Assembly: GCF_000003815.2 (NCBI RefSeq) | Contig: NC_049984.1 | Span: forward strand, 24,251,016 to 24,315,015 | Direction of reading: 5' to 3' | Length of the DNA stretch: 64,000 nucleotides | Source of the DNA: Branchiostoma floridae | Taxonomy: Eukaryota; Chordata; Leptocardii; Amphioxiformes; Branchiostomatidae | Shown: positions 1 through 55,639 of the stretch, in pieces | Numbering within the stretch: position 1 is the first letter of the stretch | Layout: the number at the start of each line of letters is the position of its first letter | Made by a program: the position numbers and the translations under genes | Notes under the pieces: model-generated | Databases searched by the model: none | What the model was told of the DNA's origin: nothing | What the model saw: the letters and a program-made list of their open reading frames with translations, nothing else

Positions 1-165
<165 letters not shown>

Positions 166-2834: not shown

Positions 2835-2920
2835 GGCAAGCTTGGCCGAATGGCTAAAGCACCAGCTACGTTTGCGCTTTTTTCGCTAGGTCAACCCTGG
2901 TTCGATTCCGGGCGGGAACA
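2835..2920 (+). repeat. tRNA-like sequence (SINE head or tRNA pseudogene)
   Basis: It has an A-box-like TGGCCGAATGGC and a B-box-like GGTTCGATTCC at tRNA spacing, followed by a T-rich tract that could act as a pol III stop. The acceptor ends do not pair and no clean anticodon arm forms, so I do not call a functional tRNA. Confidence 0.5.
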
Positions 2921-3823
2921 ACTTTCTTTTAGTTGTCCTTTTTTTTTTCTTTTTTGATATTTACAACAATTTTATCTTGCAAACAGAGCATCGTTCAGTT
3001 TACACGCCTTTTTATCTATTTTTTAATTGCCCTCAAAAGACGGCGTTTAAACGGTCGGACGGTCCATGTGGGGAGGGGGGCTCGTCAACGCCTCGGACCA
3101 TACCGGCAGCCATCGTCGATGTCTGTCGCCTGCGGCGTTAAGTCAACTTTGGAATGGAGGCTACGGTACGGTACCGGACCTGAACCTGATCATGAATTTC
3201 AGCTTTATAATTGCTACACAGCACAACCCGTGACGTCAGGTAAAGGCCGAGAATAGGGGTGAACCGAGAATACGGGGCACCTATTAAATGGCAATTACTA
3301 TTGTGTGTAAGATAGTTTGACTTAAACTTCAAAAAAGGCCACGGGAAAGACTTGCTGCATTTTCGCGAAAATGTTGTCATTCTAGTTGTTTCTTTTCTTG
3401 CGATTTTTCCTTTCTTTTCCCTTCGCCCACATCCTGCATTTTTTCAAAAATGTTGCCTTTCTAGTTCATATAAATTTTTCTTTTCCAAAACGTATATGTT
3501 GTTACTATCATCGTATATGTTGTTAACATTTTCCATTCGGAATACGCTGTATCATTTTCTCATTGATTATACTGTAATTTACATAACCTTTGTCAGTCTC
3601 CTTCATATAACCGATTTGTGCCACTAGAAGTAATAGGCTCTTCATTTTTGTTTTCATTTCACATCTTCTTTGACCTTGGAATATTCTGTGAATGGGCAAT
3701 ATTCAAAACAATGGTCCATTTCGCTACAAAGGAATCTGTTTGTTGGAGTATCCTATATCCACAACTTGTTAGAATAACTATCAACTCTTCTCTACTTCTC
3801 TACTTGCTATTTTCTTGGACCAA

Positions 3824-3931
3824 CTAATCTCCAAGCAGACTTGCTGAGGCATAAGGGAGTATCATAAGCTTGGGAAGGAGTTTAGCCGGCAGAGGAGTTT
3901 CATTGGCCACCGCGTCTGCTTGGAGATTAGT
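3824..3931. mobile_element. 108-bp inverted-repeat miniature element
   Basis: ACTAATCTCCAAGCAGAC at the left end is matched exactly by its reverse complement at the right end. The interior is short and non-coding. It sits in the left flank of the CCGG-bordered element at 3956. Confidence 0.75.
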
Positions 3932-3955
3932 GAACCCCTGCCGCAGTAGTGCCGG

Positions 3956-5097
3956 TGTGACAGCGATCTCGCCCCCCCGGGATTTCGCCCCCCCGGGGGG
4001 GAAATCCCTAGGGATTTCGCCCCCCCCCCCCCCGGGGCGAAATCACTAGCGATCTCGCCCTCCCCGGCTAGTGATCTCGCCCCCCTACCTCGCCCCCCTT
4101 TAGCGATTTCGCCCCCCCCCCCCAAAAAAAACGGGTTTACATGACATTTTAGAAGTTGATTGGTATAAATCACAAAATGCAGTTTCAGAATGATATAAGT
4201 ACACGAGTTTGATACATAACTCCATTCATAGTATCAATATTAACGTAATTACATGGTAATAAGATAGTTGAACTTGTTTCAGACAAGGAGGGTTGGGTCC
4301 CTTATATTCCCATTAGTGCATATACCTGAGTCTTGACATAAGATGTATTTCATTGTATTCACCTGTCCTCAAGCAACCTATATATCTCCAATATGAAGTC
4401 TCTACCATGAAGTGACCACAAAAGAACTATGTAATGTCTTTATTAATTATGCAAATATTAGGTATTAATTAGAATAACGCACATTTTGGTATATGCACTT
4501 GGCCAAGGGATATCTTCACCTCCAACATGACTGTTTTTTCTAGTATTTAGGAACTGATGCATTTCATTACCCGTGTTTCTTAAGACTGGTACTTTACCAG
4601 TGTTTGTGTAGCATTTAGCAATAGCTATATCAACTTGCGCGTAGATAGTGTTTATAATAAGAAACTATTATTCACGTGTGTTTTTGTTAGTGCTTTGGAA
4701 ATGTTTCCAGCACAAGAAAGAAAACACTGTGACAAATTGAAAACATATAGCTGGTGTTGATTAATACGTTCGCAGTAGCACTGTTTTTATGCCACCTCAG
4801 CTGCAAAAAGTGTCTTTTTCATTTCAATGTCATGTTTGCACCGAACAATATAGTATCGACTTTCGAGGTATGAAATCTTACGGTACGGTAATAAGGTGCC
4901 ATATAGGTACCAGGTAACACACCATATACGTTACTCCCAAGGTGCAGTATAGTACCAGGTAGTGCACCTGTAATATGTAGTAACCAGCTGCTCTGGGGGG
5001 GGGGGGGGCGAAAACGCTAAAGGGGGGCGAAAACGCTAGTGATCTCGCCCCCCGGGGGGGGGGGCAAAATCCCTGGGGGGGCGAAATCCCTGTCACA
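3956..5097. mobile_element. CCGG-bordered inverted-repeat element, copy 1
   Basis: The ends are TGTGACAG and CTGTCACA, each next to a CCGG tetranucleotide (3952-3955 and 5098-5101). Inside each end is an array of poly-C/poly-G blocks separated by 'gcgaaatc(g/a)ctag(c/t)gat(c/t)tcg'. The ~0.9 kb AT-rich middle has no coding capacity. The same ends, arrays and middle recur at 33480-34625 and, in longer form, at 50419-52778. The right flank matches a dispersed repeat also seen near 56790, so the element sits inside an older repeat. No transposase is present. Confidence 0.85.
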
Positions 5098-5101
5098 CCG
5101 G

Positions 5102-6495
5102 TATAATCTGTTCATTTTCTAAACGGTCCAACATCCTGTCTACTAAATTTTTTCAGGTCCGTTTTTTACCTGACCAATCCAACAAAAAAAGCTGGTTTTG
5201 TACTGGCACACCACACCCTAGCGTAAATCGTTGTCATAACCCCCATGCAGACCCTCTCTTATAAAAAGACTTACCGGAGGATCAAGTGGCGGCAGTTGTT
5301 TGTTCTCATCGCGGCATCTTACGTTCCTCGGATCATGAGAAGGAAAGTTGTCGTCTCTACACTTTCCGCGTTTCTGGTCTGTTCTTCACCAACGTACCGC
5401 ACTCCCCTCAGTCCCCTATGTCTGTAGCCATGGCAACTCCCGTAGTCATGGCAACCGTTTCCAGGCGTGACAGCCCTACGGTGTGCTATGTCGCTAATGT
5501 GGCCTCGGAAAAAGTAATCATTTTGAATGAAATTCTTTGCAACATTAGCAGCCGCATACGAAGCGGTTAGTCAAATTAGATGGCTCTGTATCCACTTTGC
5601 TGTAGTAAGGGCAGGCAAAAAAAGTTGTGTTTTTATAGATTTTTAGTCTTAATAGTTAAGTCCTAATTTGCTTGATGCATCTCATTGTGTATATCTTTGT
5701 GGAAGGCATGAGAACACCAAATACCATTATCTGCCGCAAATGTAATCCAATGGGAGAGTTGAGGAAACAAATATGCAATCATCTCAAGAATCAAAAGTTC
5801 AAGCCATACAAACTTACACTCAAATGATAGCCTACTATGTCCAGCCTCATCAACTTCCTTTGTATTTAGTCTTTAGATACACCCCCTAATCAGAGCCCTT
5901 ATATTAGCCCAATGGCTCAAAACAGCTATCTGTCGACGATACCACTTTCTCAGGGGGGTGCGAAACCCCGAGATGGAGAAAGGTCATTTTTTTACAACTA
6001 ATTCAACAAGTTAAGTATGTGGTCCGCAGTCACTCAAAAAATGCGAAGATTTCACATAAAATCCCACCAAGAAGGCTTTTCAATGGTGTGAAGCTTTTTC
6101 TTAAATTTACTCTCTCACCAAGGGTCCTAGTTGCAGGCACCAGTTCTTGTGTGAGGGGGGGGGGGGGGGTCATCATATTCTTCCCTCCCTCTGAAGCTCG
6201 GCTGGGAAAAAGTTTCCGAGTGACGTTATGTCCATTTCCTTCTTCAGTTTCACAGATGTTTTATTTTTTGCCAAGCTCGAGACGGCGATCGCGATGCGCT
6301 CTCACTGCGACCTAAATAGGATATGTGTAACCTTTGACTTCATACTGTGTATATATCATACACCATGTAAAAGTGTGACTGAGAGGACAGCAAAACACAC
6401 AAATTGTAAATAAGTTCGTTTCTGTTCTATACAATTCATTGAGCGATCTGTCAAATTATATGTCGAAGAGAGAGCGCGGCGAAAGCGCCGTCCTA
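5102..6495. other. Intergenic, repeat remnants only
   Basis: The first 120 bp match the 'ggtccaacatcc' repeat also found near 56820. The rest holds no recognisable gene. A G homopolymer of ~15 lies at 6155-6169. Confidence 0.4.
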
Positions 6496-6623
6496 TTACC
6501 CCCATCACATTAGGCGAAAATCGATTGGACGACGAGTCTGCGAGCTCTAAATTACGAGGAGGCATGACCTTGACGGGAAGGGGGAACTCGCAAATTTCTT
6601 CGTCGGCATCAGGGTCATGCCTC

Positions 6624-6786
6624 TGTAACGATGGGCCATGCGTGTGTCCAGTTAGCCCATGACATCTGCTATGAATTAGAACCAATAAAGGAGGGCACCC
6701 AGATGTCCCCACATCAGTCTCACGCAGGACATGACTCAGAGTGGACCTTCTTCATAGAGCTAGACGTTCCTTTATATACTCTAACA
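6624..6786 (+). repeat. 5' LTR of the miniature retroelement
   Basis: Runs from TGTAACGATGGG to CTCTAACA and is repeated directly at 8108-8268. Confidence 0.88.
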
Positions 6787-8107
6787 CTGGTGGCAGCTTC
6801 TTGGTTGCCGCTTTCGAGCGGCCGGACCCCGTCCTAACGCCATCTCTCGGCCCGCTACCATGCCGCCCGACTCGCCCGGTAACGAGACCACTAGCCACCC
6901 GAGCGAGTGCCGCCTGTGCTGCGATGGACGACCCGCCATCATGCCACGTCGCCGAACGACCTCGTCCCGACGTGCTACCACGCCGTCCGTTTAGCCAGCC
7001 TGCCTGCTACCGCCATACCGACAACAGACCCAGCTCGTCCGATGTGTCTCCATGCCGTTCTCTTACCCAGCCTGCCGCCAGACCTCACCTTCCAATGTGC
7101 CCAGCCGCCTCCGCGAGATGTCGCCCTGAAGCCGTCCGCAGCCAGCCACATGTCCGTGCCGCCCTGCAGACCACACCGCCGTCTACCCGACCCGACGCGC
7201 CTGCCTCACACCAAGGACTCGTCGCTGCCCATTTCGACCACAGCTGCCCCGCGACACAGCCTTGAACTTCCAAGTATGACCGCCGGCGTGAAGTGAACTC
7301 AGCTGTGACTCGAACGATCGAACTGTATAAAGTATTTCTACTTGCCCCTGGAATGCCACTGAACTACGTACAAAGATCAACGAACTCTTGTTGTGGTTTA
7401 ATTCTAGTGAGGTATTGTCGCACAAATTATGTATTTTTGTCTGATGTTCTAAGTTAGCTAGTAGCGTTCTCTTTGCCTTCACCGTGAGCCTGCGGGCAGC
7501 GTTGATGTCTTTTGAACCTATGTTGTGCTGTATTTTGTGTGTTGACTGTGATGCTTGCCTATGGAGAGCTAATGCCTGCGGGACGTCTCTCCTAGGAAGA
7601 TCCATGTGTTGTATGATGCTTGCCTTAGTAAATAGTTAAGCCTACGGGACGACTATTCTCATGTCTGTATGCCCGGCCACGTGCGCACTGTAGCTGTGTG
7701 ACTGCCCGGAAGACTGAGTACTGCTAGGGAGTAATTTTGTTTCTTGGCCGCTGTGCCAGTATGAAGCCTATTGTTTTTGCTTGTTTGTTGTTTCTATGTT
7801 CGTGCGATTGAAGTACAGGCGCCTGTAACAGCCAAGGCCCATTATGAGTCCATTATCACAGCAGCAGTCCGTCTGTGAAACATCATTGCCAGGAAGAAGC
7901 TAATTACTTGTCACACCCGTACCAGATTATGATCTATATGCTACCTCATTTGTTTACATTTGACCTCTATATTTTAAACTTGTAATAATTGTATTGTAAT
8001 AATTAGGAGTAACATATAAGTAGCCCAGACTTAGTTTTTAGTTCTGTTGAAGATTTCACATTTTGTATGAGACGACGTGGGCGCTCGTCTACCATGGGGG
8101 GAAGGAG

Positions 8108-29471: not shown

Positions 29472-30527
29472 TAACTAGTGTTACTTATACAACTACACTC
29501 ATGGCTACCTCACTAGTGTCACTTCTACAACTACACTCATGGCTACCTCACTAGTGTCACTTCTACAACTACACTCATGGCTACCTCACTAGTGTCACTT
29601 CTACAACTACACTCATGGCTACCTCACTAGTGTCACCTCTACAACTACACTCATGGCTACCTCACAAGTGTCACTTCTACAACTACACTCATGGCTACCA
29701 CACCAGTGTCACTTCTACAACTACACTCAAGGCTACCTCACTAGTGTCACTTCTACAACTACACTCATGACTACCTTCTGGTGTCACTTCTACAACACAC
29801 TGAATGCTACCTCTCTAGTGCCACTTGTACAACTACACGCATGGCTACCTCACTACTGTCACTTCTACAACTACACTCATAGCTACCTCACTAGTGTCAC
29901 TTCAACAACTACACTCAAGGCTACCTCACTAGTGTCACTTCTACAACTACGCTCAAGGCTACCTCACTAGTGTCACTTCTACAACTACACTCAACGCTAC
30001 CTCACTAGTGTCACTTCTACAACTACACTCAAGGCTACCTCACTAGTGTCACTTCTACAACTAGTTACACTCAAGGCTACCTCACTAGTGTCGCTTCTAC
30101 AACTACACTCAAGGCTACCTCACTAGTGTCACTTCTACAACTACACTCAAGGCTACCTCACTAGTGTCACTTCTACAAGTACCCTCATGGCTACCTCACT
30201 AGTGTCACTTCTACAACTACACTTGTGGCTACCTCACTACTGTCACTTCTACAACTACACTCAAGGTTACCTCACTAGTGTCAATTCTACAACTACACTC
30301 AAGGCTACCTCACTAGTGTCACTTCTACAACTGCACTCAAGGCTACCTCACTAGTGCCACTTCTACAACTACACTCATGGCTACCTCACTAGTGTCACTT
30401 CTACAACTACACTCAAGGCTACCTCACTAGTGTCACTTCTACAACTACACTCAAGGCTACCTCACTAGTGTCACTTGTACAAATACACTCATGGATCCCT
30501 AACTACCGTCACTTCTATAACTACACT
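29472..30527. repeat. 38-bp minisatellite, about 28 copies
   Basis: The unit is 'actagtgtcacttctacaac' plus 'tacactc(a/t)(a/t)ggctacctc', tandemly repeated with few mismatches. Early units mostly read ATGGCTAC and most later ones AAGGCTAC, so variants are locally homogenised. The array ends ~260 bp before the oxidase start codon. Long open frames across it are artefacts of a unit with few stops. Confidence 0.95.
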
Positions 30528-30784: not shown

Positions 30785-31172
30785 ATGGATACGTCTGATT
30801 CGAGATCGTTCACATATAGCGCTGTTTCCGTCGCAAATTCAGAAACGCCCTCGTGGAAAACCACGTCGTTTTGGCAGGCGATATCCGTGGTACTTTTCCT
30901 CGCTTGTGTGGTGTTGACTGTTGCACTTGGAGCTGTTGTAGCGAGCGTTAGCTCTGGAATACAATGTCAACAGGCCTTAGTGGGGTCAAATGTAGCACCG
31001 TGCCCTGCTGGATTTCCAGTCGAGCCTGTGAACGAAGACGACCCGGGACTGTACGATGACCTGTCCCTGGCAGAACACAACGATGTTCGTGTCTACATGG
31101 AGAGTCAGGAGAGTCTAGGTTTAACACCGTGGGACAAGGCTGGGTTCAGGGATAACTACATCAACGCTATCG
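30785..31172 (+). CDS. Copper amine oxidase exon 1
   Basis: Encodes the cytoplasmic start, signal anchor and first part of the N-terminal domain. Donor GTACGT after ATC G. Start chosen at the first Met, which matches the paralogue at 1154. Confidence 0.88.
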
Positions 31173-34100
31173 GTACGTGTGGTACTTTACCCCATTCCTG
31201 TAAACAGAGCATAAATCGGGTTTAGTATAGTATACTAGCATGGATGCCATAACCACAGCGCTGGACGTTATCCCCTTGGGTCGGGAAAGCCACATGCCCT
31301 GTTACCAAAGATGCTCCCCCCCCTTCCCCACAATATCGCAGCGGCCACCAGTTGAAGCATTTCCTTGGGGGCATGTTGTACCTAGAACTGTGGGGCTGTC
31401 CTTTGTAGCCTAGAAACAGTCTGGCATTTTGGCTAAGTAGGTACAAGAATATTTACCTTTAGATTCCAAAATGCTCATTTTAGAGGAGGTAAAACGAAAG
31501 TTTTTGTACAATGTCTTTGCCAGCTTTCTAAGCTAAGTACAGTGAAACGAAAATTTCTATACAATCTTTTTTTCATTGCCAGCCGTCTAAACCAATCACA
31601 GTCATCACAGGCAAAAGTTTTCAGTCAAAAGAAGCCTGCCGGTGTTTGCCCTTGTCTGAAAATAAGGACGTAATACCCCCCTCACATTAGGCGCGATTCG
31701 ATCGGACGATGAGTCTGNNNNNNNNNNNNNNNNNNNNNNNNNNNNNNNNNNNNNNNNNNNNNNNNNNNNNNNNNNNNNNNNNNNNNNNNNNNNNNNNNNN
31801 NNNNNNNNNNNNNNNNNGGGGGAACTCTGCCATTTCTTCGTCGGCATCAGGGTCATGCCTCCTCGTAATTTAGAGCTCGCAGACTCGTCGTCCGATCGAA
31901 TCGCGCCTAATGTGAGGGCGGTATAAGGACGCTCTATTCAGGGCTGTTTGGTCCCTGAGTTGAGTTTAAGAAAGAGCATTATGGAGTCTTCAGTCACATA
32001 AAAACATCCCCGTTAATTTTGCATAGCTAACATTAACCCCACCTCTGTCCTGAGCAACCTCTTGTTCTGAGTAGCAATTTTTTTCTCAGTCCCTTGAGTT
32101 GTTTAGTCTCTAGCTACCAGACTGACTACGCTGGCTTTTATGGGGAGAAAAATTGAAAGGGGAGTTTGGCCACCAGATCTAGAAGGTTTGGTCGGCCGGA
32201 GGGTAAATAGTAACCTTAGCGTGGACTGACTTCCCTGGTCAATTTGCCTTTTTTTGTCGAATGCTACGATCTCCTCACCCCCGTAGGAAGGCCTGATGGA
32301 GGCTATGCGGGGTTGCTGAATATAGCTTTGACAGTACATTCAGTTGTCCCGTATAAGAGAATACATAAAGTCATAGGTGCTGTGTAAAAGCTAACATTAA
32401 AAAAAAACATTTTATTCGTTGCAGTATATTATAAGCGTAACATTCTGTTTTGTGATATACGTTTCCACAGAACTGTACGTCCCCGCCAAGTCCGAGGCCT
32501 TGGCGTTCCTGGACGGAGGCGGAGCAAAACCGGAGAGACAGGCACTGGTGACCGTGCACGCTGGCGGGAAGACACCGCCGGTCGTGGAGGAGTACGTGGT
32601 CGGGCCACTGCCTAACCCTGCCCGCCACGAACCGTACTCCAACCCCGCTAGGAGGAGCCCCATCCCGTGGACCAGCCGGGCTATCGACCCAAAAGAATAC
32701 GCTTTGATTATGCCTATCATTGAAAATACCACAGCTAGGGTGTACGATATCCTAAAGGTCTGTATATCATTTGCCGATATAGAATCTATAATCTGTCCAT
32801 ATATTCAGACACTCAGACCTACGTCATATGACTTGAACGGAAGTGTGACGTCATCAATGGGTGAAAGGTGCCCGAAAGTTGATATCAGCCCCCGTCTCGG
32901 TTGAGGGATGGTCGACGGGCTCAAGTGTGGAGTGTCTCTTTAATTGTTATTCGGAAATAATCTATACGAATGTCAAATCTTTATAGGATACTCAAATATA
33001 AATATTTAAACATGTCAGATTAGCAACCAATCACTTGTCAAGAAACATTCTATAATCAACAACCTAAGCAGATATTGGGCTTGATATTTTCTCATGTGAA
33101 GTTTAATAATAGAAGTAGAACTATCAATAACATGTATTATTAGAAATTAGAAATCATGATGTGCAAAAGCGGTCAATTTGTTTGTTGCCAGACAAGAAAT
33201 GTCTTTTTTAAACAAAAATTTATATTTGTCTCTCAAAGGAAAGCTATGGCTACACTTACCGCAACTGCTCGGCGCGTTGTCTGGTTGCCTTGGATTCGGT
33301 TCCCAAGGGGTACAGAAGTGGGAAGAGGAGGTCGTGGATCTCGTTTCGCCGCGCAGGAGTAGGTGGCGTCACGTATTTTATAGGCTTCATGATGCAGGTG
33401 AGAATTAACACTAGTTTGCATATTTAGACTGGATGAAGCTTGCTTAGGCCTTGGTCACAATTTCCAACCCGGGGCCCGGTGTGACAGCGATCTCGCCCCC
33501 CCGTGATCTCGCCCCCCCGGGGGCGAAATCACTAGCGATCTCGCCCCCCCCGGGGCGAAATCACTAGCGATCTAGCCCTCCCCGGCTAGTGATCTCGCCC
33601 CCCTACCTCGCCCCCCTTTAGCGATTTCGCCCCCCCCCCCCATAATAAACGGGTTTACATGACATTTTAGAAGTTGGTTGGTATAAATCACAAAATGTAG
33701 TTTCAGAATGATATATAAGTACACGAGTTTGATACAAAACTCCATTCATAGTATCAATATTAACGTAATTACATGGTAATAAGATAGTTGAGAGACACAA
33801 TCGAGAGGCAACTCTCGATCTTCATGTAGGCGTCGNNNNNNNNNNNNNNNNNNNNNNNNNNNNNNNNNNNNNNNNNNNNNNNNNNNNNNNNNNNNNNNNN
33901 NNNNNNNNNNNNNNNNNNNNNNNNNNNNNNNNNNNNNNNNNNNNNNNNNNNNNNNNNNNNNNNNNNNNNNNNNNNNNNNNNNNNNNNNNNNNNNNNNNNN
34001 NNNNNNNNNNNNNNNNNNNNNNNNNNNNNNNNNNNNNNNNNNNNNNNNNNNNNNNNNNNNNNNNNNNNNNNNNNNNNNNNNNNNNNNNNNNNNNNNNNNN

Positions 34101-37100
34101 NNNNNNNNNNNNNNNNNNNNNNNNNNNNNNNNNNNNNNNNNNNNNNNNNNNNNNNNNNNNNNNNNNNNNNNNNNNNNNNNNNNNNNNNNNNNNNNNNNNN
34201 NNNNNNNNNNNNNNNNNNNNNNNNNNNNNNNNNNNNNNNNNNNNNNNNNNNNNNNNNNNNNNNNNNNNNNNNNNNNNNNNNNNNNNNNNNNNNNNNNNGT
34301 TCGCAGTAGCACTGGTTTTTATGCCACCTCAGCTGCAAAAATTGTCTTTTTCATTTCAATGTCATGTTTGCACCGAACAATATAGTATCGACTTTCGAGG
34401 TATGACATCTTACGGTACGGTAATAAGGTGCCATATAGGTACCAGGTAACACACCATATACGTTACTCCCCAGGTGCAGTATGGTACCAGGTAGCGCATC
34501 TGTAATATGTAATAGCCAGCTGCTCTGGGGGGGGGGGGGCGAAAACGCTAAAGGGGGGCGAAAACGTTAGTGATCTCGCCCCCCGGGGGGGGCGAGATCC
34601 CCGGGGGGGCGAAATTGCTGTCACACCGGCCGGGTAGCTTCCGAAAACGAAAAATGTGATAAAAGGCAACAGAACACAAAAACGCAAACAATATTAGTCA
34701 TTGGCATAATTTGTGTATATTCCTTGGTCAACGCTTTTACTTTTCGTTTCCGCAAACATCCCGGCCGGGGCCCGGTTTGGAAATGTGACCCAAGCCTTAT
34801 GAAAAGCAAACTTAGGGCTGTAGAACTTAGATTTTGTGACGCTTTTCTGCGAAATAAGTATTATAAGATGAGGTATGTGTAAATCTATTCCATTCCATAC
34901 CGACATATGTGGAGCAAAGACGCAATGCAACTGTGCCGTGAGAATGCCTGAATCAATTCCTAATTTTTTTTTTTTTGGGGGGGGGGGGTCCATTATTATC
35001 CTCATGCGGCTTGTTTCTGTGCCGTTTATAACCGCTCAAAGTTTGAAGTAATGATGTAAATGTGGGAATATACTGCAGTAGTTTTCAATATCATACGTAT
35101 TTCCTTATTCATAAATAATATTTCCATTTTTAACGCTCCAATGCTGCTTAGGTTGCCTTTAAAATCAAATTTCTCGTGGTCGATATCGTTGAAGAGGTTC
35201 ATCAGTCACGTATGCAAACAGTGACAACAATTTTCATCAATCAATGACTGTTTTTGAAAATGTACAGTACATACCTCCCAAATTTTCGATGTCTACCAGT
35301 ACATCATCTTCAGGGGAATGACCTAATCTCAGTTCTCGCGAGAGAACACGAGACTAGGTCAGGCTTGCGTGGATAATCTGCCCCCTCCCCCCGCCTCCTT
35401 GCGGAGAATGGTCGATGACTTCAATTACGAGTTTATGTTACAATGCGTTTCGCTATACGCCAGGTAGTCGTCATGAAATATGTTAAGACAAGTTGGATTC
35501 TCTCATGATTGTGAAATAAATGGTGGATATGTTTTTACGAAATCTGGTTAACTTGCAATTTTTCGAAGGCATTCGACAACACAATTTGCTTAAATGACCT
35601 CCGCCTTTACTGTTAGTCATATGAATTATGTAACTAGTTCTAATTTCTTGTTTCCTTTTCTAATATATACCAGGTCACTCACGAGAGTGCTGACCCCAAT
35701 GAGTGGCATGTCTCCAGAGTCTTCTATAACAACCAGTACTTTGACTCAGTAGAACAACTCATTACCGGGTACGCGGACGGTTCTGTTGAAAAGGACACGC
35801 CTGACGCCGATGTACAAGAGGACGACATTCTGTATCCTACCTTCATCCGGAGGGGAAAGCCGCAGCCAGCTTCTCCTAGCCGGGGCCCGACGCTGACCGA
35901 ACCGGGCGGCAGACGGTACGCTGTGCGGGGGAGACACGTGGAGTACATGGGCTGGAGTTTCGACTGGCGTTTGACTACAACACAAGCCATGCAGCTGTAT
36001 GACGTCAGGATGAACGGGGAGCGCATCGCGTACGAACTGAGCTCACAAGATGCGACGTCTTTTTACTCCGGAGGCAACCCCGCAATGCTCAACAACCTCT
36101 TTCTCGACTCCTATTGGGATTTTGCCAAAAGCTTTGAACTTGTACGTGGCATAGATTGTCCAGAAACGGCGACGTTTTTCAACACACTTCAGCAAAGAAG
36201 CACCAAGGAACCGAGACTGATCCAGAACTCCGTCTGTGTGTTCGAACTGAATGCTGGGATACCACTCCGTCGCCATTTTGATTCTGACTTTGCAGGTGGC
36301 TTCAACTTCTACGGCGGCATGGCTGATCACGTGTTGGTATTACGTCATATCAACACCGTCGACAACTATGACTACGTCTACGATTATATTTTCCACCAAA
36401 ATGGCGTCATCGAAGTCCGGGTCGGCTTGACTGGATATATTCTAACGTCACAAGACAGGACCCCGTACGGTTACCCGTTATATGGGGGTATCATTGGAAA
36501 TGTTCACCAGCACTCTTTCAACTACAAGGTGGACCTCGACATTCTTGGAACACAGAATAGGTGAGAGACACGTTTTGTAGAAACATCAATGGGTTGATCC
36601 TAGAAATAGAAATATATGTCCCTACCTGCGATATACTATAATGCAGAAATTTTCACGGTGGCTTCATGTTCGCGTTGCCAATTCACCGCGAACTTAAAAC
36701 CACCGCGAACATTTTTCCATGGGAGTAAGAAATTACAGTGCATGGTGCTACCGCGAACTTAAAACCAGTGCGGTCAGTCCTTTTCCCGCTACCGCGAAAT
36801 TATATCCCCGCGAACTTACATGCATTAATAGTATATGTAGTTATCATTACCTTCGACTAGGAACGCTGTAGGCACCCAGGACGAAGCATTGAACATGTCG
36901 TTTCAACCAAACTTTTCAAACAGGTTCGAAACCGTGGAAATCCTGTTGGAGAACATCACCAACCCTGTGCGGCCGGAACTGCGCCACATCCAGACCCGCA
37001 TCCAGCGGAACCTCAGAACTACCGAGAAGGAAGCCGCCGTGCAGTACGACTTCAACCGGCCCAAGTACTACAACTTCTACAGCGAAGAACAGAAAAACCG

Positions 37101-40100
37101 GTACGTGGTATTACTGTCATCTCCCTCTAACTCATCATACAAAATCTCGGTGATGCTTAGGTCACAAGTGGAAGAAAGGGCCATTCTCCTACGCAGAGAC
37201 ATCCAACGGCGCCAGCAAACCGCCTCTTGTCTGTACTCTGCTATCTCAACCGTCACCATCAGTTCCTGACCGCCCTGCTTATAAATATTAATGAGCTTAC
37301 CCTTATATGTGCGAGATCACTTTTGAAAACTGAAAGGCCTATTCTCTGATTGTCTGACAGCTGGTTTATGGTGGAACTGATGGTGACGGTTGAGAGAGCA
37401 GAGTACAGACAAATGGCGGTTTGCTTGCGCCGTTGGATGTCTCTGCGTAGGAGAATGTGTCGAGCAGTTCACGGGCTGTTCTGTGGCACTTTCGGACATG
37501 ACACCTACGTGGGCACCCTGTGGTTACCGAGTTATAATCAACCCGGGACCTGACCCCAAATAAACATCGTAACCTTCCCGTGAGAACACCGAAAGGTATC
37601 CACAGGGACAAATTTGTGTCTTTGGAGCCCGGCCAAGGCTATACCTTCGACGGGCCTGGTGCAATCGTGACCGAAGCCTAACATGCATCTAACGTAGGCA
37701 AGATGTGGTGCTATTGTGTACTTTCGATCAATGTGTAACGCGGCTAACGACTTTAAGATTTTGCAGTTAGATACCACATTTGCATGATGTGACATGTTCT
37801 TTCTGCGCCTAGGTTCGGCGTGAATCGTGGTTACCGTGTGTTAGATACATTTGCATGATGTGACCATGTTCATGTTGTGCCTAGGTTCGGCGTGAATCGT
37901 GGTTACCGTGTCCAGCTGAACGGCATCGCGAAGACACTGCTGCCCCGGCAGGACTGGGCAGCGATGCGGGGAGTGGCCTGGCAGGACTACCAGCTGGTCG
38001 TGACTCAGAGGAAAGACTCGGAACCCTCCAGCTCCTCCATCTACAACCAGAACGACCTGTACGACCCCGTAGTCGACTTCCAGTCCTTCATCGATGATGA
38101 TGAGAGCATCGTTGACGAGGACCTGGTTGCCTGGGTGACGCTCTCCACGCACCACATTCCTCACTCCGAGGACTTCCCGACCACGGCTACTGCGGGGACA
38201 CAGATGCAGTTCTTCCTGCGCCCCTTCAACTACTACGACGAGGATCCTTCGGTGGGATCGTCTAACGCCGTTCTCAAGGTGTTCGGAATTACCGGTCCGG
38301 TCCGGACCGCGGAATTACCGGTCCGGTCTGTTTGGGGGGCGGAAAAACCGGTCCGATCTGTTATGCGTATAGCTACGCCCCCAGGCAGGAAATAGCAGAA
38401 TTGCAATTTGTATGGTGTGTTCCCGTATATCACAACATGGAGCGCATTAACGCTAATGAGGTGATGATGAGCCGCGTGTCCTCACCGTAAGAACTGATTA
38501 GCGCCTTGATTTTACAACAGTATGAATAGTAAGAATGCCGGTATCCTTCCAGTGACAGTAGTAAATCAACTATGGCATCAACGTAAGACCGGCTCCGGTC
38601 GGTGCGGTCTTTCATGTTTCTAGCGGAGTGCGTTCTCATCCGTACAAAATTCTTCTCTTTTTTGGTGCGAAAATGTAATCCCTAACACTTGTTTCATAAT
38701 GAGAGAACTGTAGGTTGGAATGATTGGATTGTGTATTAATAATATCCATCAGAAGTTTTCTGCATTCAAAGCGGCGCACATTAGGTCGTTGACCCCGAAA
38801 TACGCAGCGTGCGTGGGTCGTTGATCCCGAAATACGCAGCGTGCATGGATATGTGTGCGATGTTTCTTGACATATCATATTCTCTGTATAAATGACAGAT
38901 TTTACCGAGATTGATATTGATTGCTGTCTTGCACTTGTCGCTAAAGACGAATATTTTGTTTTGATGACAACAATCCCTTGTAATCACCTGCGAAAACTCG
39001 GACGCCGACGGGAAAGACGCCCGTGTAGTTTTTAGAGCCGAAACAGTCATGGGTGACCCTAATATATTCGAACTTAACCAAGCCACAGCGCTAAATAGAC
39101 ATCGTAATTTGTATGTTGGAAATAGATTTGACAGGAATTGACCAAAGGTGGGCTTTCAATGTTTCGGCAGTCTCGTGTCGGCCAGCTGAACGCGTGGGAA
39201 AATGTTGAAACAAGAGTGACAGTCCGGGGGTGCCTGGCGTCTTACACGGAGCGCCGCGAGTCTGTGACTGTCGCAGACTCGTGCTGATTTCGTTACACAT
39301 CGAGTGCGTAGAATATAAAAATGATAATAATACTATAGAGAATCGTAAATACAGTGGTTCGTTCTTTGTTGATGTAACGTCCTTGGTTCTTTGGAGCTCT
39401 TGGCTTGATTCATTTCCAAAAGTAAATAGCACTTGTATTTTAATTCAAATCCCATCCACAGACCGACAATGCCACAGCCTGGCTGTTACTATGGTTGTGA
39501 TTGTGATTGGCAGTCGTGCGGTTTCCTCTGTAATGATATCCCTAACCTACTTAGCATATCGGTACCCTTTGATCAGGCCGACAGAACTCCACAAACTGCC
39601 GAGGGATAGCTTTTCAGGATCGTGTAGAACTTCCTACATTACGTTAGAAATCGGAGACTAATATACCCATTACAAATGTCTCACCGAGTATAACCTTTTT
39701 TCTTTGCAAGTGGAAATATAAGATTTGCCTGAGTTGGTTATTTATCATATACAAGGTGAAATTGTAAAACCATATTATGCCCGGTCATAACTTATATTTC
39801 TATAGATAAGCTGATGCTCCTTTGTTAGGAATTGATTGATATCATAGCTACTTTTCTAGAGGCGGACTTTTCGGATATTTTTTTCTTCTTTGAAATTTAA
39901 TATACATTGTATAATACACTATACAATTTACATTGTATAATGTAACCATATGCCCATGTATTTCTAGTTAAGATGATGGTCCTTGTTTAATTAGTTATTG
40001 ATATCACAACTACTTTACGAGACGATACAAAACTATGTTTTCATTCGACGACTTTGCTTGAAACGTCGTCGAGGGTGCCGAGGGGCCCAACAAGACCTAC

Positions 40101-42846
40101 CTGTTCCTGACGGAGCTCTTGGGACGGAACATCGCTGACGGCCGCTCCTGATCGTCGGATAGTCGACCGACGAAATCAATACAGGGCATTCATGTGTTTT
40201 TAATGTATTTTTTGATCGTATTTGTCTGTTCAATGTTGAGTTGGCGTACGTAACTAACTAACCGTACCTGTTCAAACTTGTGAAGTCGTAACTAACATTA
40301 CACTTACTTCTATGTATTAATTTAAGACATACTATTATTAGGTAGCTACATTTCTAAGTCAGAATAAAGGGATTCGGGGTTCCATCCCTTGCACACTGCT
40401 GATCGTCGGGGGTGCAGCTCCGCCAACAAGACCTAGCCTCTACCAGGCTCCGCGGATCGGTAGTTTAATTGTAGAAAATGGACAAATAGAGTCAATGGTA
40501 CGCTAGGGGAGTCAGCCGGCCAGAGGAATGGCCTGGAATACAGTTAACCTTGCAGCGATCCTAGATTCTGATGTCCTGGTTTAACAACTGACACCGACAT
40601 GAGGCAATAACTATCATGACCTCTTGATTTCAAAATCTTGATATAAAAAAAATAGCATTACAGAAGTTCATCGTCCAAATATTTCAAAAATTTTGTATTT
40701 CCGATTCATACTACAAGAAATGTCGAGAGGGGGTTGTATGAATGAGCCCCAAAACAACAACAAAAAACAGCATACAATCTTCCGATTGTAATAAATATCG
40801 CTGTTAACAGTCGTGGCGATCTACCCCCATTTTAAACATTGTTTATTGATTTTATAATCTACAACTACACTGCAGTTGCGAACTTTCCAAAATTATCGGT
40901 GAGAAACTTTTAAATCTCCTTTAATTTGGAGAATACACATGTACACTACAGGACATCTTAAAACGTTTAAAACCTGGAAGGTAAGTTCGTACGAGAGCTT
41001 TCCACCATCATTGTGCAGCTACCAGATCGACCATCATCTCTTCCAAATGTGGAAATACGGTAGGTACATCGCTAAATGTAAGAAGAAACTCCATGCCTTT
41101 GTCATCTTAAGTCGCGGTGGCACCATATATCAGTGTAAATCACAACTGAATATGTCTAACAATTTGTGCACGCCTGTTGAACTTAACGATGTGGGTTCAC
41201 GGTACATGTTATTCCAAAATATCTAAAAGATATTCATCGGTACTAAATATCGCTATGAAATAAAGTAAACCAAGAAACAAAATCAAACACTGTGGAAAAA
41301 CAAGCTCCGTGCTGATAGTTGTATTAATGTGCATGGCCGTTCTTTGAAAGTATGCCGTCAAAGCAATGCGATTAACCTCCTTGGTCAAACTCAAAGAAGC
41401 CGCGCCCGCCCGCATGTGTCAATCAAATTGGGCGGCGCGGCGGGAGGGCCCGGGTCAGACCCATTTTTGCTACAATTCTACCGGTATCTGAACATCTACT
41501 AAACATATTCACCCGCACAAAATATCTATTGGTTTCTATTTCAATAATGTAGGTCCCATATTTCCGCTCAAAACCACAAAGTTTGACAACATTCCTCACT
41601 TTCTGAACCCCACACAAAACCCGTATACAAGGCCGTGACGTCGTAGTATTTACGACGTGTACATGTCGACAGCTCGTGTCATACCATTGAGAAAAGTGCC
41701 TATAAACTCTATAGTGTATATAAGATCTTTGGTCATATCTAATAGAAAGCGTAGTACGTAGTAGTTCTAAAATACATGGTTGCACCATTCCAGATAGGTA
41801 TTTACCGTGCACAGATATTCCTATCAAAATTCGAAGGTGGCTTTCCGATCGCGCGCTGACCAGTGCATGTTCCCGATCTTGATCACGCCCAGCGGCAATA
41901 TCAATGTTGCCGGTGACTTGTGTTGTCCGGTAACGTTAGATTTTCTGCGAACATGTACAGGCGATTTATATTGACGTTGCAACGGTTGCATTTATCTCAG
42001 TATTGTTTAAATACACATATTTTTGTTTGAAGAAATATTTCCAAGAAAACATGGTGATGAGGATTGCCCTTTCGTGTTAGGAAAATAGCAAAACATCGGC
42101 TAGCGATTTTACTTTTAAAAAAAAACACAGTCTAGTTACGTTGCGCACGTGGTAGAACCCCGCCCTTCCGGCCAAACGCTGTTAAATTTCTGCCGTAAAT
42201 CAGGCTGTTTGATTGATAATTAATGGTGTTTCATGAATATTCCGTGTACACGGTATTCAAAGCATACATGAATATTCTGAATATTACCGACCGCTCTTCA
42301 CGTGATACCGTTCCGTAATACGGCCGTAATTACGATCGGATTTATGGCGTGTGCACGATTACGCTAAGCGTAATCTACGGTAACGTTAGTGTTCAAAAGT
42401 GTCGGTTTTACTGCTTTGAGTGTTGTTGGCAGTAGGTTCCGTTCAGCGTATCGGGCATGGCAAACTCTCCACCAGTGCAATGTTTATGTTAACCGTCGCC
42501 AATCGATCTGACGTAAACAGTGACATTAGCATGCGGACCCCATGCATCCAATCAATGCTCTTCATGTTGTGATATACGGGAACACAGCATACCAATTGCA
42601 ATTCTGCTATTTCCTGCCAGGGGGCGTTGATACACGCAGAACGGTTTTTCCGCCCCCCAAACAGACCGGACCGGTAATTCCGCGGTCCGGATCGGACCGG
42701 TAATTCCGAACACCCCCGTTCTCATCACCCCGGGAGAGAAGTCTGGGTCCGTGCGGGTGGAACGGTTCGGTACCCCGACAGGTCCTGCCTGTGTGTCCGA
42801 GCAGAGTCCGTTCCACTACAACGGGACGTGGCGAGGGGCCAATTGA
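30785..42846 (+). CDS. Membrane copper amine oxidase, last exon split by a 4.4 kb element
   Basis: Oxidative deamination of primary amines by a copper/topaquinone enzyme of the VAP-1/AOC type, predicted to be a type II plasma-membrane protein. Coding pieces: 30785-31172, 32471-32757, 33239-33397, 35674-36560, 36924-37100, 37885-38276 and 42725-42846. All junctions are GT-AG and phases match; the total is 2412 bases, 803 residues plus stop, near the family's ~760. Signal anchor ~29-54. The catalytic Asp is predicted at 423 (LFLDSYWD), the topaquinone precursor Tyr at 510 (NYDY), and copper ligands at His556 and His558 (HQH) and His723 (THHIPH). The last two pieces are one exon interrupted at 38277-42715. 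As it stands the frame reads into the element and stops at 38395, losing the last 40 residues but keeping the active-site residues. Confidence 0.9.
31673..31924. mobile_element. Inverted-repeat miniature element with gap
   Basis: Ends 'ataccccccctcacattagg' and its mirror 'cctaatgtgagggcggtat'. Same family as 6496-8333, but without the LTR insertion. Confidence 0.85.
31718..31817. other. Assembly gap (100 N)
   Basis: Run of N inside the intron 1 miniature element. Confidence 0.99.
32471..32757 (+). CDS. Copper amine oxidase exon 2
   Basis: Acceptor TTTCCACAG; begins (E)LYVPAKSEALAFLDGG and contains EEYVVGPLPNP, typical of the family's N-terminal domains. Ends DILK with donor GTCTGT. Confidence 0.88.
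33239..33397 (+). CDS. Copper amine oxidase exon 3
   Basis: 53 codons, phase 0 on both sides: ESYGYTYRNCSARCLVALDS, then VPKGYRSGKRRSW. This matches the family segment between the second N-terminal domain and the catalytic domain. It is easily missed because longer open frames overlap it. Confidence 0.88.
33480..34625. mobile_element. CCGG-bordered inverted-repeat element, copy 2
   Basis: TGTGACAG...CTGTCACA with CCGG on each side (33476-33479, 34626-34629). Terminal arrays and inner sequence are nearly identical to copy 1 at 3956. Its host repeat normally seems to have a single CCGG here, so CCGG behaves like a duplicated target site. The centre is missing in a 463-N gap. Confidence 0.88.
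33836..34298. other. Assembly gap (463 N)
   Basis: Run of N inside copy 2 of the CCGG-bordered element. The non-round length suggests an estimated gap size. Confidence 0.99.
35674..36560 (+). CDS. Copper amine oxidase exon 4 (catalytic core)
   Basis: Starts VTHESADPNEWHV after acceptor ACCAG. Contains the predicted catalytic Asp (LFLDSYWD), RGIDCP, the topaquinone site NYDYVYD and the two-His copper motif VHQHSFNYKVDLD. Donor GTGAGA. Confidence 0.92.
36632..36838. mobile_element. TTCGCGG palindromic miniature element, copy in intron 4
   Basis: Ends 'tactataatgcagaaa' and 'tgcattaatagta'; internal 'ccgcgaacttaaaaccaccg' arms. Family members are at 50015, 57280, 60934 and (diverged) 63664. 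Confidence 0.85.
36924..37100 (+). CDS. Copper amine oxidase exon 5
   Basis: Acceptor CAAACAG; encodes FETVEILLENITNPV through YSEEQKN. Donor GTACGT. Phases agree with exons 4 and 6. Confidence 0.85.
37182..37457. repeat. Intron 5 hairpin (86-bp arms, ~104-bp loop)
   Basis: 37182-37267 and 37372-37457 are reverse complements with about five mismatches. Blocks include 'attctcctacgcagagacat' and 'tcaaccgtcaccatcagttc'. It lies between exons 5 and 6 of the oxidase. Confidence 0.9.
37769..37912 (+). repeat. 72-bp tandem duplication of the exon 6 splice acceptor
   Basis: 'cctaggttcggcgtgaatcg' occurs at 37809 and 37881, each preceded by 'tttgcatgatgtga'. The duplication covers the branch region, the acceptor and the first ~28 exon bases. 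Confidence 0.93.
37885..38276 (+). CDS. Copper amine oxidase exon 6, left part
   Basis: Acceptor GCCTAG; encodes FGVNRGYRVQLNG, QRKDSEPSSSS, the third copper His in THHIPHSED and RPFNYYDEDPS, then NAVL, where the transposon begins. A near-identical acceptor lies 72 bp upstream. Confidence 0.9.
38277..42715. mobile_element. 4.44 kb element with long terminal inverted repeats and 9-bp target duplication
   Basis: The terminal inverted repeats are ~160 bp (38277-38438; mirrored 42563-42715). They begin (A/G)GGTGTTCGGAATTACCGG and contain repeats of 'ggaattaccggtccgg'. The element is flanked by CCGTTCTCA on both sides (38268-38276, 42716-42724). A 9-bp duplication with long inverted repeats is typical of Mutator-like elements; this assignment is inferred. 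No transposase is readable in 4.1 kb of interior, so it is non-autonomous. A short coding-like stretch is at 40065-40151. Confidence 0.9.
40065..40151 (+). other. Coding-like segment inside the 4.4 kb element
   Basis: A GC-richer island in AT-rich surroundings reads VVEGAEGPNKTYLFLTELLG, then RNIADGRS and a stop. Composition suggests a captured exon fragment, but I do not recognise the family and see no splice sites that settle it. Confidence 0.25.
42725..42846 (+). CDS. Copper amine oxidase exon 6, right part
   Basis: Resumes in frame directly after the second target-duplication copy (42716-42724) with ITPGEKSGSVRVERFGTP and GPACVSEQSPFHYNGTW, ending at TGA 42844-42846. This is the C-terminal tail of the oxidase, now separated from its exon by 4.4 kb. 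Confidence 0.85.
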
Positions 42847-47440: not shown

Positions 47441-48709
47441 TTATACGGTTTCCACGTCGTTTTGTTTGGAATCACAGCAGTTAAGACGATCTATGGTATA
47501 AATTTCCCTTCGTCTCTTCTGCGGTGTGCCAGTCTGCCTTCTACATGTGAACAACTGTTTGCAATCTTTTCTGAAAGATTTGTTCACGAAGGCATAGATG
47601 AACGGATTCAGGATGAAGTTCAAAAGGTATAGTTTGCTTATCACCTCAAACGCGTTGATTGACAGTTGCGTGGTGGTCTTGAAAAAGAGGTATCCTAAGT
47701 TGAGGTTTAGGATACAGTACGGAAGCCAGGTGAAGAAGAAAACAAAAGTTACCAGAACGAAGAGTTTGACTGTTCTGTAGTTGTTTCCAGCGCCGAGAGG
47801 GGACAGGCTAGGTCTCTTCTTTCTCAAATCTTCTAGTTGTAAGCTATGTACTGGAGATGGTCTTCTTGAGGTGTTGACAACGGCCGCGCCTACCTTTGTT
47901 GACAGCCTCCGTCTAGTCCTGCGAATGTCCAGGTAAACAATCGTGTACAAAACAATCACGATGGCGACACAGAGAAGCTCGATAATCGGTTGGTACCAGG
48001 CCACGAAGTAGTTACAGACCCCGTCGTACTTCAGTTCACAGAAGTTGATCTGGGCGTTAATGTCGAAGAAGTCGTAGCACGGCAGCACCGGCAACGGGAG
48101 GACCACCCCCAGTGCGACCGAGACGCCCGCCGCTATCCTCGCCCTGTTCGCCGCCTTGATCTTCGAAGAAGCGTACTTGAAGGGCCGGCAGATAGCCAGA
48201 TACCTATCCACAGCGATGGCGACCGTTATGAACGTAGACGTAAGCATAGCAGCACATTCAAACCACTTGAACAGCCTGCAAGTCTCTACGTTCGGGAAGA
48301 GGTTGAACATCGTCAGCGAGGCTTTTACCTCTAGTGGAATCAAAATGGCGGACGCCACCCCGTCTATGATAGCCAGATTGAGAATGAAGTAAGACGGAGA
48401 CAGCTTCTGTTTCTTTCCAATCATCACAACTGTGACAAGAAGGTTACCAATAGTCCCACAGGCGCACAGTATTGAGAGGATGACGGCAATGGGGATATGG
48501 ATATCTGCGTGAGTGTCGTTCAAGTCCGAAGAAGTGAAGCTGTCCAAGTCCGAATTGTTGAGGTACAGTCCGGGAGTCAGCCACGGCCGAAGGACGTACG
48601 TGTAGTTTTCTTGTGATTGGTTCGTGTACCTGTCGCCCTGGAAATGTGGATAAAACGGTAGAAAAACCCTCTCCGATTCCCAGTCCGCCATGCTGGAAGA
48701 GTCTGACAA
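47441..48709 (-). CDS. Rhodopsin-class (class A) GPCR, intronless
   Basis: A 422-residue receptor in one exon, expected in the plasma membrane and to signal through G proteins. The N-terminal ~70 residues carry N-glycosylation sites (NQS, NYT, NNS, NDT). Helices: 72-97 (GN, Asn89), 107-129 (Asp116), 145-167 followed by DRY (168-170), 190-210, 238-260, 314-336 (FFFTWLP) and 352-373 with NPFIY (368-372). Cys144 and a second-loop Cys (224 or 232) fit the standard disulfide. The third loop is Arg/Ser-rich with SRRPS- and KKRPS-type possible phosphorylation sites, and CC at 411-412 could be palmitoylated. All class A landmarks are intact. Residues suggest the peptide/amine-receptor side of the family, but I cannot name the ligand. 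A CT microsatellite lies just upstream. It is not closely related to the receptor at 21233. Confidence 0.92.
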   Translation of the reverse strand: MSDSSSMADWESERVFLPFYPHFQGDRYTNQSQENYTYVLRPWLTPGLYLNNSDLDSFTSSDLNDTHADIHIPIAVILSILCACGTIGNLLVTVVMIGKKQKLSPSYFILNLAIIDGVASAILIPLEVKASLTMFNLFPNVETCRLFKWFECAAMLTSTFITVAIAVDRYLAICRPFKYASSKIKAANRARIAAGVSVALGVVLPLPVLPCYDFFDINAQINFCELKYDGVCNYFVAWYQPIIELLCVAIVIVLYTIVYLDIRRTRRRLSTKVGAAVVNTSRRPSPVHSLQLEDLRKKRPSLSPLGAGNNYRTVKLFVLVTFVFFFTWLPYCILNLNLGYLFFKTTTQLSINAFEVISKLYLLNFILNPFIYAFVNKSFRKDCKQLFTCRRQTGTPQKRRREIYTIDRLNCCDSKQNDVETV

Positions 48710-48722
48710 CGATTCGCGAATG

Positions 48723-48726
<4 letters not shown>

Positions 48727-48758
<32 letters not shown>
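48727..48758. repeat. (CT)n microsatellite in the GPCR 5' flank
   Basis: About 14 CT units ~20 bp upstream of the - strand start codon, i.e. (GA)n on the coding strand and probably in the 5' UTR. Confidence 0.95.
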
Positions 48759-49576
48759 ACGGACTGGCGGTGCTTTGCTATTGTCTAACATATGGTACTT
48801 GCATCATATTCGAGCAAACTGGTTGGAACTGGCTCCAACTATCTTTGGGGTGTCTCCAAATAGCACGTTTCCGTTCGCGCTATTTTCGTTGAACACACAT
48901 GCGAGCGGACGTCCTTAATTTAAATATACCTAACCTTGCGTACATGTATATACGCACGAGTTGCGTGGGAAAGACAACAGGTGCGAACTCATACCGCCAT
49001 GTTTATCTGAAAGATCTTAAATCTTGCCACATATGTCACCACGTAATTAGAAAGTTGTCACCAGGAAAAATTTACAAGGGGTATATATAGATCTATTGTC
49101 TGACAAATTGATTTCTATTTATAACACGGCTTTACAGTTCTTACATGCAATGGAAAACGTGTGTTGTAGGTATGTAAATATTGTTTAAAGCATCGGAAGT
49201 GATACCGAGTAAATAAGTCAACGTTTTGATACACAAAGTGTTTACATTGTCAGTAGTAACGTAGCCATAAAGGTAGTAAAAATAAGTTGTTGATGATTAC
49301 TATAATTAGGGAACCAACATGGGCGTTTGCCTATTTTCTTAAGATGTATCAAAGTGTGTTAAACCTACGAAATAAAAGTTTGTGTAACTGTGTATTTAGG
49401 CATAAGAACAATAGAATGAATGAATGAATGAATTTCGATGGATGAATGAATGACTGAACAAAGCACATTATAAACACATTGTACAGGTTTAGAAATACAC
49501 CAAAGACAAAGTTGTATACTTCGATGCAAATTTAATGTATGGGTTCCGACTATTCCGATAAAGATTGGTTTTAGAT
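48759..49576. other. Intergenic, nothing recognised
   Basis: Upstream of the GPCR. A (GAAT)n tract lies at 49414-49435. Confidence 0.4.
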
Positions 49577-53075: not shown

Positions 53076-53412
53076 NNNNNNNNNNNNNNNNNNNNNNNNN
53101 NNNNNNNNNNNNNNNNNNNNNNNNNNNNNNNNNNNNNNNNNNNNNNNNNNNNNNNNNNNNNNNNNNNNNNNNNNNNNNNNNNNNNNNNNNNNNNNNNNNN
53201 NNNNNNNNNNNNNNNNNNNNNNNNNNNNNNNNNNNNNNNNNNNNNNNNNNNNNNNNNNNNNNNNNNNNNNNNNNNNNNNNNNNNNNNNNNNNNNNNNNNN
53301 NNNNNNNNNNNNNNNNNNNNNNNNNNNNNNNNNNNNNNNNNNNNNNNNNNNNNNNNNNNNNNNNNNNNNNNNNNNNNNNNNNNNNNNNNNNNNNNNNNNN
53401 NNNNNNNNNNNN
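53076..53412. other. Assembly gap (337 N)
   Basis: Run of N. Confidence 0.99.
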
Positions 53413-54649: not shown

Positions 54650-55639
54650 TTACACGTGTACAGGTGCACGGGGACGGAATGGTTGCTTCTTGGTCTGCCC
54701 TGCCATCTGTTGCAGCAGCTGATCAGCTGCTGCATCTCCACCTGCCGCCGCCTGGTGGAGCGCATGCTGCTGCTGCTGGAACTGCAGGAACACCCGCTCG
54801 AACTGATGCCACTGCTGCTGCTGCCACTCGTCACAGGTAGGCTGGTGCTGCTGCCAGATCTGGTACAGCGTCAGCGGCTGGTCTGCTGCAGTTGCCGTGT
54901 TATCCGCTAGAGGCTGCTGCTGCACGGTCTGCTGGTGCTGGTGCTGCTGCTGCTGCCACTGCAGGAAGTCCTGGTAGGTGAGCTGGTTGTCGGGGACGGC
55001 GTTCCTGGGTGGTGGGTGGTGGTGGTTGCCACCAGGTGGCGGGTGATGAGGGCCTCCCGGGAACAACGGGTCCGGGTGCGGGTTGATGATCCCTCCCGTG
55101 TCGGTTCCGGTGTTTGTGCCGGTGCCAGTGCCCGCAAGATCCGTCTGAGTACCGGTAGAGACGACGGAGTCCACATTGCACTGACACCTGCCGGCATTGA
55201 TGCCGCTATCGGACCTAACCGTGCCCTTGAAGCACGCCATGAAGTAGGGGTACTCGTTGGTGACGTGGTAGCGGTACACCCCGTTCTTCATGCGGCCGTG
55301 GCACTCGTCCAGGTCGGCGTTGGTCAGCACCGTGCCGTCGTCGTCCACCGGGCCGTAGATCGGGAAGCCGTCGGCGGCGACACCGACGATCTGGGAGTGC
55401 GAGCTGGTGCCGTCGAAGACGCAGTCGGGGTGGATGTGGTAGTGGTACTGGCCATTAGGAGCCGGGTGTCCGTCGCACTCGTCGAAGACCTCGTTCTCCT
55501 TGGCGTCGAGACACTCGATGGTGAAGGGGTTGAAGATGGGAACGCCGTTAATGGCAACGCCCACCGGGCCCATCGGGAGACAGGACGTCTGGCTAGCCAC
55601 CTGGGGGGCCTTCGGGAGGGTGAACCGGAAGTTTTGAGC
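54650..55639 (-). CDS. YHYH-domain protein exon 2
   Basis: Acceptor TCTATAG; begins AQNFRFTLPKAPQVASQTSC. The frame stays open to the stop next to 54650. Confidence 0.88.
   Translation of the reverse strand, partial: AQNFRFTLPKAPQVASQTSCLPMGPVGVAINGVPIFNPFTIECLDAKENEVFDECDGHPAPNGQYHYHIHPDCVFDGTSSHSQIVGVAADGFPIYGPVDDDGTVLTNADLDECHGRMKNGVYRYHVTNEYPYFMACFKGTVRSDSGINAGRCQCNVDSVVSTGTQTDLAGTGTGTNTGTDTGGIINPHPDPLFPGGPHHPPPGGNHHHPPPRNAVPDNQLTYQDFLQWQQQQHQHQQTVQQQPLADNTATAADQPLTLYQIWQQHQPTCDEWQQQQWHQFERVFLQFQQQQHALHQAAAGGDAAADQLLQQMAGQTKKQPFRPRAPVHV

Follow-up and report, generated by a model that had tools for sequence, protein, structure and literature searches.

A transposon within the final coding exon of an AOC1-like copper amine oxidase gene of Branchiostoma floridae, with a predicted exchange of the enzyme's C-terminal tail

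In the Branchiostoma floridae assembly, a copper amine oxidase gene has its last coding exon interrupted by a 4439-bp transposon, which is flanked on both sides by the same 9 bp of exon sequence. We consider it very likely that a non-coding, non-autonomous cut-and-paste element, with a transposase that another element would have supplied, recently inserted into this one member of an AOC1-like gene cluster and duplicated 9 bp at its target. If transcribed, the resulting allele would be read 39 codons into the left end of the element before reaching a stop, giving a predicted 802-amino acid enzyme with its catalytic domain whole and its C-terminal tail replaced. The insertion appears to be young and probably still segregates, and near-identical, unbroken paralogs may buffer the loss of the interrupted gene. 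Throughout, the window is the whole analysed stretch of 64,000 nucleotides (C6:24251016-24315015), and the genome searched comprises 513 Mb in 431 contigs; positions are those of the window unless a contig is named.

Anatomy of the insertion

The element, a non-autonomous TIR transposon with full-length relatives elsewhere in the genome, occupies positions 38277-42715 on the plus strand. It is bracketed by two identical copies of the sequence CCGTTCTCA: a left target-site duplication at 38268-38276, which doubles as oxidase codons, and a right one at 42716-42724 (both plus strand). Across 59,543 window positions, this is the sole identical 9-mer pair at that spacing. The inverted ends total about 165 bp each and pair in two blocks, an outer block of 76 nt (38278-38353 against 42639-42714, 97% complementary) and an inner block of 89 nt (38360-38448 against 42554-42642, 90% complementary). 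The left inverted end (38277-38448, plus strand) contains three direct repeats of 24 nt in subterminal position, at spacings of 26 and 30, and the right inverted end (42554-42715, minus strand) carries in the window copy a 10-bp deletion that is absent from 12 other aligned copies. These dimensions agree with an earlier note on this DNA, which had described a 4.44 kb element with inverted ends of about 160 bp and exact 9-bp flanks. The same note had assigned the interrupted exon to a copper amine oxidase, as its last coding one, and this location holds: the joined flanks are in frame, and the paralogs are unbroken at the site. Overall, the anatomy and the unbroken paralogs identify an insertion with a 9-bp duplication.

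The oxidase gene and its predicted product

The interrupted gene lies on the plus strand. Its start codon is at 30785, and its exons 1 to 5 span 30785-31172, 32471-32757, 33239-33397, 35674-36560 and 36924-37100, respectively. Exon 6 is split into a portion 5′ of the insertion (37885-38276) and a severed portion (42725-42846) that encodes the final 40 residues and the stop codon, and is still open. With the element and one copy of the duplication taken out, the coding pieces sum to 388+287+159+887+177+392+122 = 2412 nt, or 803 amino acids plus a stop, reproducing the sum and frame given in the earlier note for the seven joined pieces. A 2475-nt model, in which exon 5 starts 63 nt earlier, was ruled out by the proteins of relatives, which fix the acceptor.

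Exon 4 aligns with the solved diamine oxidase 3hi7 (E = 2.3e-72, PDB alignment) and includes the motif NYDY, which we take to be the cofactor-tyrosine region. With the joined last exon as the query, 10 of 34 solved sequences, including all the mammalian ones, align beyond the insertion point. The AOC1 protein of Branchiostoma lanceolatum (P0001) is unbroken and 86% identical over its full length (query, the 2475-nt model). Among the best 120 of 276 and of 153 matches, we found no protein of the exact window locus.

As assembled, the reading frame would continue into the element and end at a stop codon at 38393-38395 (plus strand), for a predicted product of 802 amino acids in which residues 764-802 (39 residues) are element-encoded and 40 oxidase residues are lost. 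This is the exchange of C termini that the earlier note had drawn from the same frame, and its further statement that the active-site residues lie upstream of the insertion also stands. The Pfam domain Cu_amine_oxid (PF01179) is whole in the 802-amino acid product, covering residues 351-756 (profile positions 2-407 of 407, E = 2.7e-110), and the insertion falls after residue 763. Judged by its sequence, with the whole Cu_amine_oxid domain and the similarity to a solved diamine oxidase, the gene is a copper amine oxidase of the AOC1-like type. The lost 40 residues include a cysteine found in 11 of 12 aligned lancelet relatives, presumably that of the inter-subunit disulfide of human diamine oxidase.

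The gene contains further repeats and a gap. A 463-bp assembly gap (33836-34298) lies inside intron 3, and a 72-bp tandem repeat (37776-37911) extends over the acceptor of intron 5 into the first part of exon 6, thereby doubling this acceptor; additional copies of the repeat occur in the paralog L030. Intron 5 also holds MITE-like sequence (37182-37467), to which the paralog locus L032 has matches in both orientations. Upstream, a 38-bp satellite of about 28 copies (29474-30527) ends about 260 bp short of the oxidase ATG.

Unbroken paralogs and the gene cluster

All six other oxidase loci found in the genome (L029, L030 and L032-L035) have an unbroken last exon, with the DNA across the insertion site displayed for five of them. 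Protein identity to the joined last exon is 99% for L029 and L030, and 63-70% for L032-L035. The two 99% paralogs lie on the same contig as the window gene, at C6:24241599-24242111 and C6:24228147-24228659, 47 and 60 kb away, and their DNA runs uninterrupted through the insertion site (...AACGCCGTTCTCATCACCCCGGGA...). By their sequence, these two loci are the empty site, in the form of recent paralogs and not of an allele. A search of the genome with the C-terminal protein, aimed at small contigs that might carry the empty site as an allele, found none. Moreover, all 12 aligned Branchiostoma oxidase proteins, which are 12 of the 14 among the matches listed, are continuous across the site.

The oxidase gene cluster comprises L029, L030, L032 and L033 at C6:24193294-24289320, plus the window gene at 30785-42846. 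Compared with its two nearest paralogs, the window gene shows identities of 85-89% (exon 2), 74-82% (exon 3), 90-94% (exon 4), 95-99% (exon 5, aligned portion), 98.7% (exon 6) and 97.5-98.3% (severed part). Exon 1 has no match to these paralogs in the stretches compared, and the homology stops at the stop codon. Because the 3′ exons are far more alike than exons 2 and 3, gene conversion of the 3′ exons within the cluster is likely. The insertion would then postdate the last exchange between paralogs, in agreement with its youth.

The element family

The element belongs to a family with the termini GGGTGTTCGGAATTACCGGTCCGG. At least 41 places in the genome match its left end, the window element's own two ends being among them; six of the matches listed, including the window's left end, show full identity over 160 bp. 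For the right end, too, there are at least 41 matches. Since the site is unbroken in close paralogs and the left end is repeated to this extent, the insertion is not a product of chance. The terminal 25-mer, allowing up to 2 mismatches, gives 101 matches versus none for a reversed control. Many of these matches are a variant sequence, and the two that were read (L043 and L044) belong to an element of about 1.05 kb that has only its first 54 bp or so in common with the family, at about 77% identity.

Duplicated flanks recur across the family. Fourteen copies, the window copy included, have two ends; seven are flanked by an exact 9-bp duplication and two by an exact 10-bp duplication, two match at 8 of 9 positions, and three show none (L016 and L018, with readable flanks, and one with an N flank). 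In L016-L018 the inverted ends extend to about 330 bp. The many copies and several identical ends suggest that the family may still be mobile. One relative, L014, harbors a nested element at its positions 4482-7802, with 753-bp inverted ends that are 98% alike and a TTAA site; L014 also contains 1114 N.

Transposase search and superfamily membership

No open reading frame (ORF) wholly inside the window element exceeds 170 amino acids, and a Pfam search of 10 ORFs recognized no transposase. The window element contributed five of these ORFs, and the loci of five relatives contributed one apiece (several relatives contain runs of N). Set against L017 and L025, the element's substitutions follow no consistent codon periodicity; in a few 300-bp stretches they are spread unevenly over the phases (e.g. 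6/18/7), and these stretches differ in position between the two comparisons. L017 and L018 keep some of the element's frames of 50-150 amino acids open, and several of these frames have stops or gaps in L025. We see no consistent coding signal in these patterns. The longer inserts of L014 and L012, considered as possible carriers of a transposase, are nested insertions, with no N-free ORF above 150 amino acids among those listed. The ORFs of L022 and L028 resemble trypsins, and a 212-amino acid ORF in L015 has a sole match at E = 0.13.

We also asked where known transposase domains lie relative to 103 termini of the element's and related families (100 of the 101 25-mer matches, and three from end searches). 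The MULE domain PF10551 has 27 hits in the genome and the Merlin/IS1595-type domain PF12762 has 3, and none of either lies within 15 kb of these termini. Of the 27 PF10551 loci, ten were read, including two that contain more than 1.6 kb of N, and none of the ten has the window element's ends. Two of the loci, L039 and L040, are an element pair with inverted ends of about 350 bp that are unrelated to those of the window element, and with PF10551 in an open frame; L040 has an apparent 10-bp duplication.

With its long ends, 9-10-bp duplications and subterminal repeats, the element agrees with the account of Mutator-like elements (MULEs) in the available text of PMC6446971 and PMC5225508. Target-site duplications of 8-11 bp mark the superfamily; exact duplications of 9-10 bp in nine of the 14 two-ended copies fall in this class, and long inverted repeats, which are usual in MULEs though not universal, are present at 90-97% over 76 and 89 nt. 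No MULE-type DDE transposase was recognized in the scanned ORFs, as would be expected for a non-autonomous member, and membership is compatible with this result. The element therefore resembles non-autonomous MULEs, as far as those sources describe them, in its inverted ends (about 165-330 bp across the family), its 9-10-bp duplications, its subterminal direct repeats and its insertion in a gene; it differs in that the scanned ORFs gave no recognized transposase and the search for an autonomous partner sharing its ends found none. The label "Mutator-like" in the earlier note has structural support, from the long inverted ends and the 9-10-bp duplications, with no transposase recognized in the scanned ORFs and no PF10551 hit within 15 kb of the termini. 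On its sequence we call the element MULE-like by structure, with membership in the Mutator superfamily unproven.

The element could instead belong to another superfamily with 8-9-bp duplications, such as Merlin or Rehavkus, or to an undescribed one, and we give this alternative real, if tentative, weight. The distance of all 27 PF10551 hits from the family's termini favors it, as does the unrelated terminal sequence of the MULE pair L039/L040, whereas the long ends, the duplications and the subterminal repeats match MULEs as characterized in the portions cited, and the Merlin-type hits are only three, none near the termini. Rehavkus elements are given a 9-bp duplication, 26-400-bp ends and a PHD-finger transposase in the accessible part of PMC6446971; on structure alone, the ends and the duplication of the window element would fit them.

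An interior common to a second family

The non-coding interior of the element (38442-42388, plus strand; element positions 165-4111) is partly common to a second transposon family. The homology consists of five main blocks, 72-79% identical and about 2.9 kb in total; element positions 927-1789 (39203-40065) have no match in the second family. A genome search with window positions 38600-40400, the first half of the interior, returned the element's own family and a second set of matches, mostly at 71-80%; the second half was compared with three second-family copies (L051-L053), via L051. Members of this second family are 5.4 kb long, with the ends TACAGTACCAGC...GCTGGTACTGTA, and its 23 end matches resolve by position into eight exact pairs, one pair with mismatches and five singles. 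Over 5.4 kb, two of the three copies match the third at 98.6-98.7% identity, and none of the three has a listed ORF above 130 amino acids. The duplications of the second family are irregular: none of six viewed copies has a 9-bp duplication, and one has an exact 4-bp match.

The homology between the families ends close to both sets of ends, and the ends and flanks are unrelated. Since the interior is common and the ends are not, interior and ends have had different histories. The straightforward explanation for this arrangement is a nested insertion that later lost its inner ends. It is quite unlikely, in our estimate, that an interior of which about 2.9 kb is still 72-79% alike was taken up by two families because it plays a role in cis in mobility or survival, or because ends and interiors are readily exchanged. 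Pack-type and nested composite transposons are a known concept. The window element is like them in that its interior is partly common to another family and its ends and interior have separate histories, and unlike them in that the common part is non-coding transposon sequence and not a host gene; Pack-MULEs are named in the available text of PMC5225508.

Age of the insertion

Seven close copies (L009-L014 and L023) were used for dating, and differ from the window copy by 0.6-1.3%. The window copy has 8 private substitutions at 4046 sites (0.2%) and the seven close copies have 5 to 38, such private changes dating the split from the nearest sampled copy. Lancelet heterozygosity is put at 3.2-4.2% in the part of PMC12500494 available to us. 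Two random alleles should each show 1.6-2.1% change along their own lineage, about ten times the terminal branch of 0.2%, so the insertion would be far younger than a typical allele. Private change of this size, set against that heterozygosity, suggests that the insertion is probably still segregating and most likely unfixed.

Alternatively, the insertion could be fixed in the species and the gene simply a pseudogene, dispensable perhaps because two paralogs are nearly identical to it and keep their last exons intact. With 0.2% private change, an exact duplication, and seven coding pieces that are all open and in frame, we judge this unlikely.

Possible removal of the element, and assembly

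A further alternative is that the element is removed as an intron, from a donor at its first bases to an in-frame acceptor in or behind its right end, giving a near-normal protein of 798, 799 or 832 amino acids. A candidate cryptic donor, CAAG|GTGTTC, lies at 38279-38284, and a candidate in-frame cryptic acceptor, CACGCAG|AACGG, at 42637-42639 (both plus strand). Three in-frame acceptors are available to this donor, whose exon would end at 38278, with exon starts at 42640, 42739 and 42742, and the severed 40 codons remain open. The A at donor position -2 is the first base of the element, and is A in the window copy and G in all 11 other aligned copies that have the base. The donor is weak, however, scoring -0.44 on a matrix by which the five real donors of the gene reach 1.67 to 6.49, and the open codons need no selection after so short a time; we therefore doubt that the element is spliced out. 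We also rejected the idea that both splice sites were selected in the window copy, as CACGCAG is also present in L011, L013, L016 and others, and the donor is weak.

That a copy of the element from elsewhere was stitched into the oxidase exon during assembly is highly improbable: close copies do exist (0.6-1.3% different) and the window has four gaps, the nearest at 33836-34298 and 53076-53412, but none lies in or near the element, which has private substitutions, family ends on both sides and an exact 9-bp duplication of local exon sequence.

Discussion

Transposon polymorphism is known on a large scale in lancelets. In the Chinese lancelet, 36,859 large indels were recorded, with 65-77% ascribed to transposons in the text of PMC4284660 that was available, and the corresponding part of PMC12373286, a study that uses 41 resequencing samples, counts 2,309 B. 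floridae genes (7.9%) as dispensable. A single exon insertion is ordinary against this known background; what is set out here is a single, dated coding-exon case in one assembly. A literature search that extended to few subscription journals returned no paper on this element or insertion, and we do not claim that either is unpublished.

The value of the case lies in its being clean and datable: a transposon would swap the tail of an enzyme and spare its whole catalytic domain. Set in a cluster with near-identical unbroken copies, it offers a natural test of redundancy, of what the C-terminal tail does, and of the speed at which such alleles turn over in a group of animals that is highly polymorphic. 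The interior common to two families is the less expected part.

Two further open frames were seen in the window, both on the minus strand. A single open frame at 47441-48784 encodes a rhodopsin-type receptor (PF00001, E = 1.8e-30), and an ORF at 54650-55639 contains a YHYH domain (PF14240, E = 1.9e-26) and a glutamine- and histidine-rich tail.
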